Shown: positions 11,093-26,656 of the stretch, piece by piece
Numbering within the stretch: position 1 is the first letter of the stretch
Layout of the letters: the number at the start of each line of letters is the position of its first letter
Assembly: GCA_007692485.1 (NCBI GenBank)
Contig: REBY01000046.1
Location: forward strand, 1-33,164
From: Pseudomonadaceae bacterium
GTDB lineage: Bacteria; Pseudomonadota; Gammaproteobacteria; Pseudomonadales; Pseudomonadaceae
DNA: 33,164 bases
Direction: 5' to 3'
Position numbers and translations under genes: made by a program
Notes under the pieces: generated by a model
The model's database searches: none
Told to the model about the DNA's origin: nothing
Seen by the model: the letters and a program-made list of their open reading frames with translations, nothing else

Positions 11093-12991
11093 TCACGCCT
11101 CCTGGGCCAGACGGCGACCGCCCAATGCGTTGCGTTTTTTCAGATGGATCAACAGCAAACTGATAGCAGCCGGGGTAACCCCGGGGATACGCGAAGCCTG
11201 GCCCAGGGTTTGCGGACGGACATCAGCCAGTTTGTGGCGAATCTCATTCGACAGGCCGTTCAGCGCGGCATAGTCCAGGTCCTCAGGCAATGCCGTCCCT
11301 TCATGTTGGCGCAGCTTGTCAATCTCATCCTGCTGACGTTCGATATAGCCAGCGTATTTGCATTGGATCTCAACTTGTTCTGCAGCATCGCTGGCAACAT
11401 CACTGGCGCCAGTGAGTTCGCACAAAGCGGAATAATCAACTTCCGGACGGCGCAACAGATCGAGCAAATTATATTCATGATTCAATGGCGTGCCATAACG
11501 TTTGGCAAAAGCCTGACCTTCAGGGCTACTGGGTTGTACCCAAGTACCACGCAAACGCTGGGTTTCCTGCTCAATGGCTTCACGCTTGCTACTGAACACT
11601 GACCAGCGATGATCGTCCACCAGACCCAATTCACGGCCCTTTTCGGTCAGACGCAGATCGGCATTATCTTCACGCAGGACCAAGCGATATTCCGCTCGTG
11701 AGGTAAACATGCGATAAGGCTCACGAGTTCCCATAGTAATCAGGTCATCCACCAAGACGCCGATGTAGGCTTCATCACGTCGGGGGCACCAGGCTTCCTC
11801 ACCCTTGGCCCGGCGTGCGGCGTTAAGACCGGCTAACAACCCTTGGGCAGCTGCTTCTTCGTAACCGGTAGTCCCATTGATCTGACCGGCAAAGAACAGG
11901 CCATCAATCACCTTGGTTTCCAGTGAGTATTTCAAATCTTGCGGGTTGAAATAATCGTATTCGATAGCATAGCCAGGACGCAGGATATGCGCATTTTCCA
12001 GCCCCTGGATTGAGCGCACGATTTGCAATTGCACGTCAAAGGGTAGGCTGGTGGAAATGCCATTGGGATAGAGCTCGTGGGTAGTCAGGCCCTCGGGTTC
12101 GATAAACACCTGATGCTGATTTTTGTCGGCAAAGCGGTGAATCTTGTCTTCAATCGATGGGCAATAGCGCGGGCCAATCCCTTCAATAACCCCGGTGTAC
12201 ATGGGCGATCGATCGAGATTCTGGCGAATAATCTCGTGGGTTTTTTCGTTGGTGTAGGTAATCCAGCAATTGACTTGCTCGGGGTGCTCTTCCACTGACC
12301 CCATGAACGACATCACCGGTAAGGGGGTATCTCCCGGTTGCGCCTGCATCTGGCTGTAATCCACGGTTTTACCGTCAATCCGTGGTGGCGTGCCGGTTTT
12401 CAACCGATCAACGCGCAGGGGGAGTTCACGTAAGCGATCAGCCAGGGCTATGGCTGGTGGGTCACCGGCGCGGCCACCCGAGTAATTGTCCAGACCAATA
12501 TGGATTTTACCGCCCAGAAAAGTACCTGCGGTCAAAACCACATTATCCGCCTTGAAACGCAGGCCCATCTGCGTCACCACGCCCTTGGTCTGGCCTTGCT
12601 CGACAATCAGGTCATCACAGGCTTGCTGGAAGATCGACAAGTTGGGCTGGTTTTCCAGAATCTCGCGAATGGCCGCCTTGTACAGCACGCGATCAGCTTG
12701 GGCGCGAGTGGCTCGTACTGCTGGTCCCTTACGGCTGTTGAGTACACGAAACTGGATACCAGCACGATCGGTTGCCTTGGCCATTGCACCGCCCAAGGCA
12801 TCAATTTCCTTGACCAGATGGCTTTTACCAATGCCACCAATGGCCGGGTTACAGCTCATCTGACCGAGGGTTTCCACGTTGTGGCTGAGAAGCAGGGTTT
12901 TGCAGCCCATACGTGCAGACGCCAGTGCAGCTTCGGTACCGGCATGGCCGCCACCGACGACAATCACGTCAAAACGTTCGGGATAGTCCAC
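11093..12991 (-). CDS. mnmG: tRNA wobble-uridine carboxymethylaminomethyl synthase MnmG (GidA)
   Basis: MnmG is an FAD enzyme that, with MnmE, adds the carboxymethylaminomethyl group to U34 of certain tRNAs. The 632-residue product has the dinucleotide-binding motif [12 protein letters not shown] starting at residue 13, the family signature [11 protein letters not shown] with the catalytic cysteine at residue 277, and a C-terminal helical domain that binds MnmE. Translation starts with GTG at 12991 behind a GAGG ribosome-binding site. Its partner mnmE is about 3 kb away rather than adjacent, because of an inserted cassette. Confidence 0.98.
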
Positions 12992-13140: not shown

Positions 13141-13390
13141 AGAATAAAAGAAAAGGTTTAAAAGGATAGATACTACTACTGTATATGGTGAAGCCACTTT
13201 CTGTGGACAACCTACTTTACCTACTGATTAAAAAGGGTTTTTTTGAAGATAAAGGTTGTGCTGCGGTTGCGTGCAACCTCTGCATACCCCCCCTGACTTC
13301 CTGTGGACAACCATGGCTGTTATCCACAGCCTGGTTATCCACCGTTTTCGACCCCCGGTTATCACCATGGCTCATGGTCGCTTGTCCACA
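13141..13390. other. Second origin-like region beside mnmG (DnaA-box cluster with AT-rich motif)
   Basis: The gap between mnmG and the LysR gene carries no gene. The AT-rich motif GGTTTAAAAGGATAGATAC lies at 13155-13173. DnaA-box-like sites follow: TGTGGACAA at 13202-13210 and 13302-13310, the consensus TTATCCACA at 13320-13328, TTATCCACC at 13335-13343, the weaker TTATCACCA at 13359-13367, and TTGTCCACA at 13382-13390. The AT-rich motif matches one at 20045-20063 in 17 of 19 bases, and both are followed after about 28 bases by a TTTCTGTGGA box. Origins beside gidA/mnmG are known in enterics, and a second origin near this position has, from memory, been discussed for pseudomonads. Function here is not shown. 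Confidence 0.75.
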
Positions 13391-13406
13391 GAGCTCATGG
13401 GCTGAT

Positions 13407-14321
13407 TTAAGGCTGAAAATAATTGTCCCAGTAGGGTGGATCACCGTAAAAACCTTCAATAAAGTCGATAAAACAGCGAACTTTACTGGCCATCAGGGTG
13501 CGATGGGCATATACGGCATAGAGCCCCAGGGGTGCGGGGGCATAGTCTGGCAGGACGACTTGCAGGTCGCCGGCAGCCAGCGCCTCGCCACAGATAAAGG
13601 TGGGTTGCAGTGCAATGCCCAGGCCATTGATGGCAGCATTCACCAGTACATCACCATTGTTACAGATCAAAGTACTGGCGCCTGGTTGATGAGCACCGCG
13701 TAACCAAGCATACAAAGGCATACCCGGATCGGCTTCCATATAGCTGTAATGCAAATATTGATGCTGTTGTAGCTGTTCCGGGTGAGTGGGAACGCCATGT
13801 TTGGCCAGATAACCAGGCGACGCACAGAGCACAACGCGGATGGGGGCTATGGCTTTGGCAATCAGGGACGAGCTCTTCAACTGGCCAATACGCAGGGCAA
13901 TGTCAAAACCTTCTTCGACAATATCCACCTTGCGGTCATTCAACTGCAGATCAACGGTGACGCCCGGATGTGCCTGTTGAAAGGCACTCAGTAAAGCTGA
14001 CAAATGCCGGCTGCCAAAGGAAACGGGAGCACTGATACGCAATACACCTTGGGCGCTTTGCTGCAGATCGCCCATCAGGTTATCCAGTTCATCCATATCA
14101 GCCAGCACCTGCTGCGCGCGCTGGGCGTAATGGCTGCCAGCCTCGGTCAGGTGTACTTTGCGTGTGGTGCGATTGAGCAGACGCACACCCAATTGGCTTT
14201 CCAGTTGCGAGACGTACTTGCTCACCAGCTGCGGGGACATCTCGAGACGGTCAGCGGCACGGGTAAAGCTGCCTTCGCTAGCGACAGTGATAAAGGTGCG
14301 CATGGCAACGATGCGGTCCAT
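13407..14321 (-). CDS. LysR-family transcriptional regulator
   Basis: This is a DNA-binding regulator of the CrgA/AaeR-like branch. The 304-residue product has an N-terminal winged helix-turn-helix (about residues 1-60, with GSFTRAADRLEMSPQLVSKY and LLNRTTRKVHLTEAG) and a periplasmic-binding-protein-like effector domain (about 90-295). It is divergent from the doxX-like gene, with a 150-base shared control region containing a TTGC-N7-GCAA dyad, the usual arrangement for a LysR protein controlling its neighbour. The inducer cannot be read from sequence; an aromatic or quinone compound is a guess from the neighbours. Its stop lies 17 bases beyond the last DnaA-box-like site. Confidence 0.93.
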   Translation of the reverse strand: MDRIVAMRTFITVASEGSFTRAADRLEMSPQLVSKYVSQLESQLGVRLLNRTTRKVHLTEAGSHYAQRAQQVLADMDELDNLMGDLQQSAQGVLRISAPVSFGSRHLSALLSAFQQAHPGVTVDLQLNDRKVDIVEEGFDIALRIGQLKSSSLIAKAIAPIRVVLCASPGYLAKHGVPTHPEQLQQHQYLHYSYMEADPGMPLYAWLRGAHQPGASTLICNNGDVLVNAAINGLGIALQPTFICGEALAAGDLQVVLPDYAPAPLGLYAVYAHRTLMASKVRCFIDFIEGFYGDPPYWDNYFQP

Positions 14322-14359
14322 AAGCGACTCCGGCCTGGATTTAGGATTATCAATATTTC

Positions 14360-14376
14360 ATTGCTAATAATGCAAT
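14360..14376. promoter_or_regulatory. Probable LysR operator between the divergent genes
   Basis: ATTGC-N7-GCAAT is a perfect dyad containing the T-N11-A pattern (14362 and 14374) typical of LysR-type sites. It lies 38 bases before the regulator's start and 95 bases before the doxX-like gene. A weak minus-strand GATAAT -10 element overlaps the flank, compatible with autorepression of the regulator. Confidence 0.6.
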
Positions 14377-14471
14377 ATGAACGCTCTTATTTAAATTTAA
14401 TGTTGATAGTAGATTATCCCCAGTGCTTGCGCAGCCCGCAGCAGGCAATTCAATAACCTGGAGATATCGCA

Positions 14472-14918
14472 ATGAACACTGTTCTGATCCGCAACCTGTT
14501 AAGCAGCCACGCGGGCTACGCCGCCCTGGTTCTTCGTGTGCCTGTTGGCATCATCCTGGCAGCGCACGGCGCACAAAAACTCTTTGGCTGGTTTGGCGGT
14601 AACGGCTTGAGTGGCACGGCGCAGTGGATGGCCAGTATTGGTCTGGAACCAGGTTTGCTGATGGCGCTGTTGGCGGGTAGTGCCGAGTTCTTTGGTGGTC
14701 TGGCACTGATCCTGGGTCTCTTGACCCGGCCGGCAGCAGCGGTGTCGGCTTTTACTATGGTGGTAGCGATATTCAGCGTGCATATCAGTAATGGTCTGTT
14801 TATGAGCAACGGTGGTTATGAGTTTGCCCTGAGTTTGTTGGCAGCCACAGCAGCGCTGACACTTCAGGGTGGCGGTCGTTTTGCCCTCGACAACCTGTTG
14901 GCCCGTCGCCTGTCTTGA
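14472..14918 (+). CDS. DoxX family integral membrane protein
   Basis: DoxX-family proteins are small four-helix membrane proteins often linked to quinone, thiol or oxidative stress; their exact biochemistry is poorly defined. The 148-residue product has hydrophobic segments at about 16-37, 61-84, 86-105 and 115-135, and the family hallmark LRVPVGIILAAHGAQKLFGWFGG near residues 22-43. The ATG at 14472 follows a TGGAGA ribosome-binding site. It is 51 bases upstream of an extradiol dioxygenase gene in the same direction, probably one transcript under the divergent LysR gene. The pairing resembles catD-catE of Bacillus subtilis. Confidence 0.9.
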   Translation: MNTVLIRNLLSSHAGYAALVLRVPVGIILAAHGAQKLFGWFGGNGLSGTAQWMASIGLEPGLLMALLAGSAEFFGGLALILGLLTRPAAAVSAFTMVVAIFSVHISNGLFMSNGGYEFALSLLAATAALTLQGGGRFALDNLLARRLS

Positions 14919-14969
14919 GTCTTTATAGACCTGGATCCTGAATATGCAGGGCCCAATCAGGAGTTAGCT

Positions 14970-15788
14970 ATGTCACGCCATACTGATGTGCTGTATATCT
15001 CCCACGGGGGTGGGCCACTGCCCTTATTGGGAGACCCTGGCCATCAAGCGCTGGTCACCAGCCTGCAGGGCTATGTCAGTCGCTTGCGCCGCCCGGACGC
15101 CATAGTGGTAGTCAGTGCGCATTGGGAAGCCTGGGTGCCTACTCTGACGGCCGCTGAACAGCCCGAGTTGATCTACGACTACCATGGCTTTCCCGACGCC
15201 GCCTACCGCATCCGTTACCCGGCACCCGGATATCCGCAATTGGCCGATCAGATGCGGCAGCAATTGCAATCTGCTGGTATCAAGGCGGAACTGGATCAGC
15301 AACGCGGTTTTGATCATGGCGTCTTTGTACCGCTCAAGATCATGTACCCGGCAGCGGATATACCCTGTGTACAACTGTCACTGGTCAGCAGCCTGAGTGC
15401 CGAGCAACATCTGGCTATGGGCGCTGCACTGCGCAACTTGCCGGTGGCTAACCTGCTGGTGATTGGTTCAGGGTTTTCCTTTCACAATATGCGGGCCTTT
15501 TTCAATGGTGATACGCCGCAGGTGGAGACGATGAATCAGGCCTTTGAAGACTGGTTGCGCGATACCTGCAGCAATCCGGCATTGACGGAAGTCGAACGCT
15601 GGCAACGGCTAGCTCATTGGGAGCAGGCACCGCATGCGCGTTTTTGCCATCCACGGGAAGAACATTTACTGCCCTTGCAGGTCTGTTATGGATTGGCCGG
15701 CAAGGCCTGTGATCAGCATGAAAGTATCGAGGTGCTTAACCGCCAGGCGGGGATGTTTTATTGGGCGTTAGAAGGTCAATCTGATTGA
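14970..15788 (+). CDS. Class III extradiol ring-cleavage dioxygenase, DODA (4,5-DOPA dioxygenase) type
   Basis: Members of the LigB superfamily open catechol-type rings with a non-haem metal and oxygen. The 272-residue product carries the DODA hallmark SHGGGPLPLLGDP with metal-ligand His12, a second ligand His51 in VVVSAHWE, His116 in RGFDHGVFVPL (probable acid/base), and His227/His232 in RFCHPREEHLLPL. The length fits the bacterial YgiD/DODA group. The real substrate may be DOPA, another catechol or an unknown quinol. An AGGAG ribosome-binding site precedes ATG 14970. It ends facing mnmE, with a large hairpin element between. Confidence 0.92.
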   Translation: MSRHTDVLYISHGGGPLPLLGDPGHQALVTSLQGYVSRLRRPDAIVVVSAHWEAWVPTLTAAEQPELIYDYHGFPDAAYRIRYPAPGYPQLADQMRQQLQSAGIKAELDQQRGFDHGVFVPLKIMYPAADIPCVQLSLVSSLSAEQHLAMGAALRNLPVANLLVIGSGFSFHNMRAFFNGDTPQVETMNQAFEDWLRDTCSNPALTEVERWQRLAHWEQAPHARFCHPREEHLLPLQVCYGLAGKACDQHESIEVLNRQAGMFYWALEGQSD

Positions 15789-20020: not shown

Positions 20021-20395
20021 ATAATTCATCATAAATAAATCAAAGGGTTAAAAAGATAGATACAGTTAATGTAAATAAGGCCAGGTTTTCTGTGGATAGG
20101 TGTCGAAGGTGCCTGTATTCAGTAGCCTGGTGCCAGGTCAAACCTTGTGTACCAACAGTGTCTATCCTTTTGATGGGTTGTGCGTAGCCTGTGGGTAACA
20201 AGATGGTTTATCCACAGGGTGATTCATGCCCTGACTGACAACCAGCTTCTACACAGGTCTCAGGCGGCTTTACGCACAGGCCTCAGTGCGTACTTTCTGT
20301 CGCTATTAGCTGATTTTATTGTGTCTTTTATTCATGCAGGGGTGTTTTTAGATCGGGTTAAATCATTGGATCTTGTCTGCTCTTGGTGTGGATAA
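20021..20395. other. oriC: Chromosomal replication origin oriC between rpmH and dnaA
   Basis: The 597-base rpmH-dnaA gap has no gene. An AT-rich stretch (about 20021-20080) holds GGGTTAAAAAGATAGATAC at 20045-20063, resembling the reverse complement of E. coli 13-mers. An inverted partner, TCTATCCTTTT, lies at 20161-20171. DnaA boxes: TGTGGATAG (20091-20099), TGTGGGTAA (20190-20198), consensus TTATCCACA (20208-20216), TTCTACACA (20247-20255), TTACGCACA (20270-20278) and consensus TGTGGATAA (20387-20395). Position between rpmH and dnaA is the recognised pseudomonad oriC position. Confidence 0.93.
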
Positions 20396-20508: not shown

Positions 20509-21972
20509 GTGTCTGTTGCACTCTGGCAGCAATGCGTCGACTTTTTGCGTGATGAGCTTCCATCGCAACAATTCAATACATGGATTCGTCCATTGCAAGT
20601 GGACGGTGATCAAGATGAGCTGCGTCTGTATGCCCCCAATCGCTTTGTGCTTGATTGGGTGAATGACAAGTACCTTAGCCGCATTCAGGAACTGCTGGAT
20701 GATTTGTCTCAAGGGCAGGCCCCGATGGTTGCCTTGTTGATTGGCAGCCGGCGGCATGCTTCATCCTCTGCGCCTGTTGCTGCTGCAAGGAGTACCCAGG
20801 CCACCCCTCAGCAACAGCAGGCTGCAACTGCGCCAGTAATGCCCAGGGCGCAAATTACTGGGCAGGGTTTTGTACCGGATGCCGAAACCAGTCGCGAAGA
20901 GTCGATTAACAGTCGCCCACCGTCAGACCCATCACCTTCCTTGATCAAGCACACCAGTTATCTGAATCGTAGTTTTACCTTTGAGAACTTTGTTGAGGGT
21001 AAATCCAACCAGTTGGCTCGTGCTGCTGCCTGGCAAGTGGCAGATAATCCGAAACATGGTTACAACCCATTGTTTCTTTACGGTGGTGTGGGTTTGGGTA
21101 AAACTCACTTGATGCACGCGGTGGGTAATCATCTGTTAAAGAAGAACCCTGCTGCAAAAATCGTTTACCTGCATTCCGAGCGTTTTGTGGCCGACATGGT
21201 CAAGGCATTGCAAATGAATGCGATCAATGACTTTAAGCGTTACTACCGTTCGGTTGATGCGCTATTAATTGATGATATTCAGTTCTTCGCCAAGAAAGAG
21301 CGTTCGCAGGAAGAATTCTTCCATACGTTTAATGCACTGCTTGAAGGTGGCCAGCAGGTCATTCTGACCAGCGACCGTTACCCAAAAGAAATTGATGGGC
21401 TCGAAGAGCGCTTGAAATCGCGTTTCGGCTGGGGCCTGACGGTGGCCGTTGAGCCACCCGAACTGGAAACCCGGGTAGCCATTCTGATGAAAAAGGCTGA
21501 GCAGACACGGGTTGATCTGCCGCACGACGCCGCCTTCTTTATCGCCCAGCGAATCCGTTCCAATGTGCGTGAACTGGAAGGCGCGTTAAAACGGGTAACG
21601 GCCAGTGCCCACTTTATGGGCCGCGATATCAGCATTGAACTGATTCGCGAGTCATTGAAAGACCTGTTGGCATTGCAGGACAAGCTGGTCAGTATTGATA
21701 ATATCCAGCGTACCGTTGCCGAGTATTACAAAATCAAGATTGCTGACGTGCTGTCCAAGCGTCGCTCGCGGTCGGTAGCTCGCCCGCGTCAGGTTGCCAT
21801 GGCTTTGGCCAAGGAGTTGACCAATCATAGCTTGCCGGAAATTGGTGATGCTTTTGGCGGTCGAGACCACACCACTGTACTACATGCCACACGCAAGATT
21901 GCCGAACTACGCGAAGCGGATGCTGACATCCGTGAAGATTACAAGAACCTGCTGCGGACTCTGACCACCTGA
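20509..21972 (+). CDS. dnaA: Replication initiator DnaA
   Basis: DnaA is the AAA+ protein that binds DnaA boxes, melts oriC and loads the helicase. The 487-residue product has domain I ([20 protein letters not shown]), a variable Gln/Ala-rich domain II (about 80-140), the AAA+ core with Walker A GGVGLGKT (192-199) and Walker B LLIDDIQF (Asp255-Asp256), and the domain IV DNA-binding signature [15 protein letters not shown] near the C-terminus. The start is GTG with a GGGGGA ribosome-binding site. It is the first gene of dnaA-dnaN-recF-gyrB. A shorter domain II explains the length being just below the usual pseudomonad value. Confidence 0.99.

Positions 21973-23129: not shown

Positions 23130-26656
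<3,527 letters not shown>

Follow-up and report, generated by a model that had tools for sequence, protein, structure and literature searches.

Does the gap upstream of mnmG in a pseudomonad chromosome hold a second replication origin beside the one at dnaA, and if so, is it used? The usual description of a bacterial chromosome gives it a single origin. The question is raised by a 33,164-nucleotide stretch of DNA from a Pseudomonadaceae bacterium (GenBank assembly GCA_007692485.1, contig REBY01000046.1, positions 1 to 33,164), which is referred to as the window throughout. A sequence-only reading had noticed a cluster of DnaA boxes and an AT-rich 19-mer between mnmG and a gene for a LysR-type regulator, had compared them with the oriC beside dnaA, and had left it undecided whether this copy fires, titrates DnaA, or is a relic. 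It had also mentioned that two origin regions have been discussed for pseudomonads. This is indeed already in print. P. aeruginosa has two autonomously replicating origins, only one of which is essential in the laboratory (PMC4403523). The oriC of P. aeruginosa is placed beside dnaA and dnaN in the available part of PMC3642087, and that of P. putida is placed between rpmH and dnaA in the available part of PMC3056050.

Results

Genomic setting

The window derives from a Halopseudomonas-like genome (2.8 Mb in 209 contigs). Its MnmG is 86-88% identical to the proteins of named Halopseudomonas species and 94-96% identical to those of two genus mates, G111 and G121. The minus strand carries, in order, the atp operon, parB, parA, rsmG, and mnmG (gidA; 11093-12991), an ORF whose translation matches annotated E. 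coli mnmG and whose promoter side faces the AT-rich element described below. The mnmG gap with its module follows. Beyond it lie the LysR-type regulator gene (13407-14321, minus strand, labeled by eye), two plus-strand genes, and then mnmE, yidC, rnpA, and rpmH on the minus strand. The rpmH-dnaA gap comes next, followed on the plus strand by dnaA (20509-21972, an ORF matching annotated E. coli dnaA), dnaN, recF, and gyrB. Thirteen gene names were backed by matches to annotated E. coli genes; parA, parB, rpmH, and the inserted genes were named by eye.

The LysR gene belongs to an insertion that separates mnmE from mnmG in some lineages; it is present in G121 (locus L125), partially matched in L126, and absent from G111 (L127), where mnmE and mnmG are separated by ~480 bp. 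The mnmE-mnmG interval beside the module (13407-15788 in the window) often carries inserted genes (28 loci). The inserted ORF length pointing away from mnmG exceeded that pointing towards it in 23 of 28 loci, a count that omitted genes lying less than 480 bp from mnmG, the LysR gene of the window among them. Two parS-like palindromes, GTTCCACGTGGAAC, lie inside recF (23552-23565 and 24185-24198). The least stable 80-bp stretch of the window (14338-14417) is located between the LysR gene and the plus-strand gene that follows it, which looks DoxX-like by eye, and the sole box-like word in it is TTATCCCCA at 14414.

Two modules with one box grid

Five DnaA boxes with at most one mismatch were found in 13141-13390, whereas 2000 dinucleotide shuffles yielded a mean of 0.086 and never more than two; the box cluster first noticed by reading is thus real, and the box-richest 250-bp intervals of the whole stretch begin at 13151 and 13201. 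The R1-like box TTGTCCACA (13202-13210, minus strand), which differs from the consensus, adjoins a putative AT-rich unwinding element (DUE; 13146-13192, minus strand) and marks the best site of the window, with a grid score of 35.3. Box scan and grid test located a second TTGTCCACA at 13302-13310 (minus strand, +100 from R1), the consensus box TTATCCACA at 13320-13328 (plus strand, +118), and TTATCCACC at 13335-13343 (plus strand, +133). Another TTGTCCACA found by box scan at 13382-13390 (plus strand, +180) takes the place of E. coli R4, which is also 180 bp from R1. Between the boxes lies a short element of the CACAACCTT type on the minus strand (13245-13261), recognized from conserved columns in a 13-genome alignment and similar to its dnaA-side counterpart (mB-dB comparison).

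The DUE is matched by an HMM (see below) and holds the 19-mer at 13155-13173. As had been stated, the oriC 19-mer GGGTTAAAAAGATAGATAC (20045-20063) agrees with it at 17 of 19 positions. It is the sole other place in the window with at least 14 matches, and 17 was never reached between shuffled pairs of the two gaps (300 shuffles; maximum of 16, reached 8 times). The distance from the 19-mer to the word TTTCTGTGGA, which begins at 13198 on the mnmG side and at 20087 on the dnaA side, is nearly equal in both places, as claimed, but amounts to 24 and 23 bases instead of about 28. From +18 to +46 past R1, the mnmG module is 72% AT. Its DUE carries, on the minus strand, the in-phase run CAG TAG TAG TAT, which resembles DnaA-trios (3'-GAT-5') and starts 20 nt after R1; the rule applied here found only two in-phase trio triplets in the dnaA module.

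On the dnaA side, a putative DUE (20040-20085, minus strand) contains the 19-mer and is covered by HMM hits at 20099-20048 and 20098-20047. The R1-like box CTATCCACA (20091-20099, minus strand) scored 35.0, the second best value in the window. It is followed by TTACCCACA at 20190-20198 (minus strand, +99) and TTATCCACA at 20208-20216 (plus strand, +117), both from box scan and grid test, and by TTACGCACA at 20270-20278 (plus strand, +179), from box scan and pattern search. A dnaA-proximal box TTATCCACA (20387-20395, minus strand), conserved in aligned relatives, probably serves dnaA autoregulation.

The boxes of the two modules form a shared grid that went beyond the boxes and 19-mer described earlier. 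The starts at 13202/13302/13320/13382 correspond to 20091/20190/20208/20270, i.e. to offsets from R1 of 0/+100/+118/+180 and 0/+99/+117/+179, with the same order, the same orientations, and a spacing that agrees within 1 bp. In both, the second box has the same orientation as R1, and the third and fourth are opposed. The suspicion that order and spacing are shared beyond chance was confirmed by box shuffles, grid tests, and pattern counts alike. A three-box pattern occurred twice in the window, with 0.00 expected; a slightly looser one occurred exactly twice in the 2.8-Mb assembly of the window, where a reversed control pattern gave no hit. Such exact patterns were not very sensitive when tried on known loci and were used for uniqueness only; there they also failed to find the G111 copy at mnmG and, in G589, the only copy left, which is on the dnaA side. 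A scan for grid plus AT content ranked the two modules first in the window (mnmG 35.3, dnaA 35.0, next site 24.8) and in 410 kb of the relative G111 (mnmG 35.8, dnaA 35.0, next site 26.9). The box grid and the score threshold were chosen after the loci had been seen; the checks on them were the shuffles, E. coli, and other families. Judged from its sequence, the window holds two related modules ~6.9 kb apart, as had been suggested, each with its own R1, putative DUE, and box grid.

Counterparts outside the family

The link that had been drawn to enteric origins held up well. Like the mnmG module, E. coli oriC lies upstream of mnmG in the same polarity, with its DUE on the mnmG side. By reading, R1 points into the DUE after a spacer of ~14-15 nt in both (~14 nt in E. 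coli), and an R4-type opposed box follows 180 bp from R1 (13202/13382 in the window). The two differ in the middle opposed box, which is at -106 in E. coli and at -117/118 in the Pseudomonadaceae grid. E. coli oriC contains 11 GATC sites, whereas none is found in 13141-13406, and the IHF consensus WATCAANNNNTTR, searched for in this form, is likewise missing from that interval. Furthermore, a second module is present at dnaA in the window, and E. coli oriC was not detected by either of the sequence HMMs described below. When the Pseudomonadaceae-derived grid was run over 49.5 kb of E. coli DNA, oriC nevertheless ranked first (29.1), followed by 27.4 at the R4 box (its other edge) and then 25.0. 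As far as letters can tell, the mnmG module is a real, conserved oriC-type architecture, presumably DnaA-dependent, which occupies the E. coli place and lacks the GATC and IHF features.

Among 27 other genomes of the order, a score of at least 30 was reached at mnmG only in nine, at dnaA only in one, and at both in one. In four of the 27, the gap is covered in part or hardly at all by the dnaA locus, and the dnaA counts are therefore lower bounds. This distribution indicates that the place of the origin unit differs between families and that the Pseudomonadaceae hold both places. Two outgroup loci (L080, a Cellvibrionales MAG, and L081, a Porticoccus MAG) carry the rnpA-yidC-mnmE block in inverted orientation, with the rpmH end towards mnmG. 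The skew of the inverted block is positive (+0.076 and +0.087, respectively), compared with -0.048 in the uninverted L078.

Conservation and natural loss

Conservation was assessed in 80 loci, nearly all from Pseudomonadaceae: the best 80 of 569 confirmed loci plus the window and three near relatives, minus four outgroups (L078-L081). A full mnmG gap was available in 79 and a full dnaA gap in 67. Within this best-80-of-569 set, a grid score of at least 28 was found at mnmG in 78 of 79 loci (shuffles 0/1580), at dnaA in 64 of 67 (shuffles 0/1340), and at both in 63 of 67. Under a strict rule, R1 stood beside a stretch of at least 70% AT in 61 of the 79 mnmG gaps and in 25 of the 67 dnaA gaps. 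With the motif words listed for gammaBOriS in the available part of PMC7174414, the genus word TCTATCCACAGAA occurred at mnmG in 28/79 and at dnaA in 6/67 loci of the same set and the family word TATAAAGCTTA in 1/79 and 6/67; these counts did not settle which gap gammaBOriS took.

In the window and three near relatives, the pairwise identity of R1 plus DUE on the mnmG side was 0.81 and that of the box cluster 0.77, compared with 0.54-0.57 for three spacer stretches. Without the window, the identity of R1 plus DUE rose to 0.91; with and without it, the spacers span 0.52-0.60. On the dnaA side, the DUE has hardly changed among the nearest relatives. The 19-mer itself, tried as the conserved unit, was rejected; it is the lineage version of a longer R1-plus-AT element.

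The single exception to the mnmG grid is Azotobacter beijerinckii (L075/L284), in which the mnmE-mnmG gap measures 246 bp; three genus mates keep the grid. An apparent degraded R1-DUE remnant is visible in this gap, and the GC skew of the species is uninformative. At dnaA, the exceptions are L002, L069, and L053. In L002 and L069, the dnaA-side R1 has three mismatches and the remaining grid is kept. In L053 (Pseudomonas sp. N040; G588:C1:466801-466990), the rpmH-dnaA gap has no recognizable grid or AT element, and the mnmG grid is retained. A search of 398 genomes at 1e-60 returned no relative of the N040 dnaA gap, so that the loss of the dnaA module in N040 rests on one assembly. The reciprocal natural losses in A. 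beijerinckii and N040 suggest that each copy can suffice.

Could the mnmG module be a functionless relic of an ancestral mnmG-side origin? The nine genomes of other families with the grid at mnmG only (at least 30 there, below 30 at dnaA) imply that the site can be old, and one species, A. beijerinckii, has lost it. The retention of the grid in all but one locus of the set and the excess identity of R1 plus DUE over the spacers, with or without the window, nevertheless make this reading very improbable.

Sequence models and lineage co-variation

HMMs of the R1-DUE unit were built from 70 mnmG modules and from 60 dnaA modules, with the clade of the window excluded. At E ≤ 10, each matched the two modules and nothing else, both in the window and in the 410 kb of G111. 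The mnmG-trained model matched 13209-13146 with an E-value of 1.6e-6. Cross-detection was weak when taken alone: the mnmG model gave 0.3 and 0.19 at the dnaA sites, and the dnaA model gave 0.00066 and 0.032 at the mnmG sites. When 39 class-level loci were scanned, all 11 hits of one model and 9 of the 10 hits of the other fell into the dnaA, mnmG, or dnaN-dnaA gap. Because the hits were almost confined to these three origin-type gaps, the models do recognize an origin-type unit. Hits in the dnaN-dnaA gap of other gammaproteobacteria were obtained in L167, L172, L184, L191, and L196 with both models and in L205 with one (E 9.2), i.e. in six loci with the mnmG model and five with the dnaA model, at weak E-values of 0.0017 to 9.2. 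The rpmH-dnaA oriC of Pseudomonas (oriI) has the same grid and R1-DUE unit as the mnmG module, each HMM finding both kinds. The mnmG module differs from it in lying upstream of mnmG instead of between rpmH and dnaA, in base usage of R1, and in details of the DUE.

The 60-nt R1-anchored DUEs of the two modules resembled each other across species, and the likeness within a genome exceeded that between clade representatives (p 0.0006 for 24 representatives; p 0.0019 for 10). An earlier form of the test, thinned to six representatives, gave p 0.036. Seven control pairs of neighboring segments showed no within-genome excess (p 0.21-0.92), and the pair of box-side segments co-varied more weakly (p 0.013 for 24 and 0.070 for 10). 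DUE similarity dropped with the distance between species. The similarity within a genome was not above that seen between very close relatives (self 14.8 versus 16.7 predicted); these values give no sign of recent gene conversion and mark the result as co-variation by lineage. A single DnaA imposing one preference on both modules explains this co-variation, and exchange of sequence between the modules is possible. Taken together with the conservation across the family and the species that keeps only the mnmG copy, the co-variation with the dnaA copy argues that the mnmG module is not a relic.

A role in DnaA titration or regulation (as at datA or DARS), or DnaA control of the mnmG promoter, in place of an origin function, appears distinctly unlikely as well. 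The box cluster does stand in a promoter region, and the mnmG promoter and leader are conserved, but this conserved promoter region is some way downstream of the boxes. Moreover, an AT element at a fixed distance, a 180-bp opposed grid like that of the dnaA side and in part that of E. coli oriC, and co-variation of the DUE are not known to be required for either use. datA and DARS are not known to have a DUE, whereas that of the mnmG module is conserved.

Strand asymmetry and the place of initiation

The cumulative GC skew of the window is lowest over 11.0-13.5 kb (-1.20 to -1.21) and has risen to approximately -0.6 by 20 kb. Read in the direction of mnmG, the block between the modules had negative skew in 83 of 83 loci (several genomes counted twice), for which gene composition could be the cause. 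Class-level controls scattered around zero, and the family offset was small: 55 of 60 values were negative when all sites were used, and only 35 of 60 at 4-fold sites. Taken by itself, the rnpA-yidC-mnmE block discriminates weakly by its 4-fold skew. At loci with long inserts, the skew of the insert was negative in 22 of 28 (two outgroups included and some genomes counted twice).

In six genomes of the Halopseudomonas group, the skew minimum within 50 kb of mnmG was closer to mnmG than to dnaA in five. The exception was G119, with a minimum nearer dnaA and log-odds against mnmG in both block and insert ORFs; in G082 and G104, the minimum was located 5.8-5.9 kb beyond the mnmG start. Of the 14 ORFs inserted between mnmE and mnmG in these six genomes, 12 pointed away from mnmG. 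ORF-wise log-odds for forks running leftward from mnmG summed to +11.1 for 18 block ORFs (including one antisense ORF of G104 from the simple ORF caller) and to +10.7 for 14 insert ORFs; these sums are overstated because the genomes are related and one short G111 gene contributes 4.2 of the +11.1. In N040, the minimum of cumulative GC skew over 160 kb is situated 27 bp upstream of the mnmG start, and the gene-wise log-odds are small (+1.43).

These data could be read as making the mnmG module the main or only origin of the lineage, with the dnaA-side module serving chiefly dnaA autoregulation and as a reserve. The skew minimum is near mnmG in the window, in five of six relatives, and in N040; both log-odds sums point the same way; and the dnaA-side R1 is degenerate in L002 and L069. 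We nevertheless regard this extreme form as unlikely. The relatives are not independent, a single short gene carries much of one sum, and gene composition biases skew. Furthermore, the dnaA-side grid is present in 64 of 67 loci of the best-80-of-569 set, its DUE is hardly altered in the closest relatives, and the DUE of this side melts in vivo in P. aeruginosa, according to the available part of PMC5109545.

The portion of that paper at hand maps the in vivo open complex of P. aeruginosa to the rpmH-dnaA module, the mnmG gap lying outside this portion; the dnaA-side DUE opens 18-46 nt past R1 upon depletion of the helicase operator DciA (PMC5109545). Together with the essentiality of one of the two P. 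aeruginosa origins (PMC4403523) and the survival of A. beijerinckii without an mnmG module, this would fit a model in which the dnaA-side module alone fires and the mnmG module is a DnaA-binding helper for initiation or its timing, acting via looping or as a stress reserve. Such a division of labor is unlikely in our view. In near relatives, R1 plus DUE at mnmG is conserved at least as well as the box cluster (0.81 and 0.77); N040 keeps the mnmG module alone and has its skew minimum there; and in Halopseudomonas, the skew and the orientation of insert genes favor fork divergence near mnmG. As to which copy fires, strand asymmetry leans towards mnmG, and the published work on P. aeruginosa leans towards dnaA.

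Discussion

We consider it likely that a second oriC module is present in full in the mnmG gap, matching the enteric oriC in position and architecture and being a sister to the one between rpmH and dnaA, that both modules are initiation-competent and largely redundant, and that, in the history of the lineage, the mnmG copy has been used no less often than the dnaA copy. The anatomy of the module, its conservation, the shared grid, the lineage co-variation, and the reciprocal natural losses were observed directly. That DnaA binds the mnmG module, melts it, and fires it is what we infer from them.

In the basal unwinding system of B. subtilis, DnaA bound to boxes that flank the site of melting continues along the trios and captures bases of one strand (available part of PMC10721633). 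By analogy, DnaA would fill R1 (13202) and the boxes at +100, +118, +133, and +180 in the mnmG module. A DnaA oligomer may then run from R1 over the ~15-nt spacer into the AT element (from 13192 to 13146), capture the strand carrying the TAG-type trios, and melt the element. The helicase would be loaded at the melted site, and forks would leave both ways. Because the interval that opens in P. aeruginosa is, at mnmG, the AT-rich one that holds the trio-like run, the mnmG module would be expected to melt as the dnaA-side DUE of P. aeruginosa does.

The arrangement differs from the known cases of paired box clusters. In Bacillus subtilis and Helicobacter pylori, whose origins are bipartite, two clusters of DnaA boxes likewise lie near dnaA on the same chromosome; according to the available part of PMC4285127, their DUE is in one sub-region and the clusters are separated by a spacer gene, usually dnaA, of up to ~2 kb. 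Here, in contrast, each module has its own putative DUE, and the two are ~7 kb apart. DoriC 10 describes two potential oriCs, predicted by Ori-Finder, in some Gammaproteobacteria and keeps the gidA-adjacent one for its GATC content; the portion of its text available neither names Pseudomonas nor mentions a paired grid (PMC6323995). In the literature searched, from which subscription papers were mostly absent, we recognized no report of the twin grid, of the reciprocal losses, or of natural single-module species. The second autonomously replicating origin of P. aeruginosa, known as oriII and reportedly described by Yee and Smith (1990), Smith (1991), and Jiang (2006), is likewise a second DnaA-type origin in a pseudomonad and may correspond to the mnmG gap.

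For the family as a whole, we tentatively propose a broader scheme, which is plausible although slightly less probable than its negation. Chromosomes of Pseudomonadaceae may carry two initiation-competent copies of oriC and may represent a living intermediate in the switch from a dnaA-side origin to the mnmG-side origin of enterics. The copies would be matched to one DnaA, either could be lost, and in Halopseudomonas the mnmG copy would be the main start.

A family with two modules and two natural single-module species make the question of a second pseudomonad origin directly testable. The twin modules also bear on the annotation of Pseudomonas origins, which in the literature cited looks beside dnaA, and on the way in which oriC changed place between dnaA and mnmG in gammaproteobacteria.
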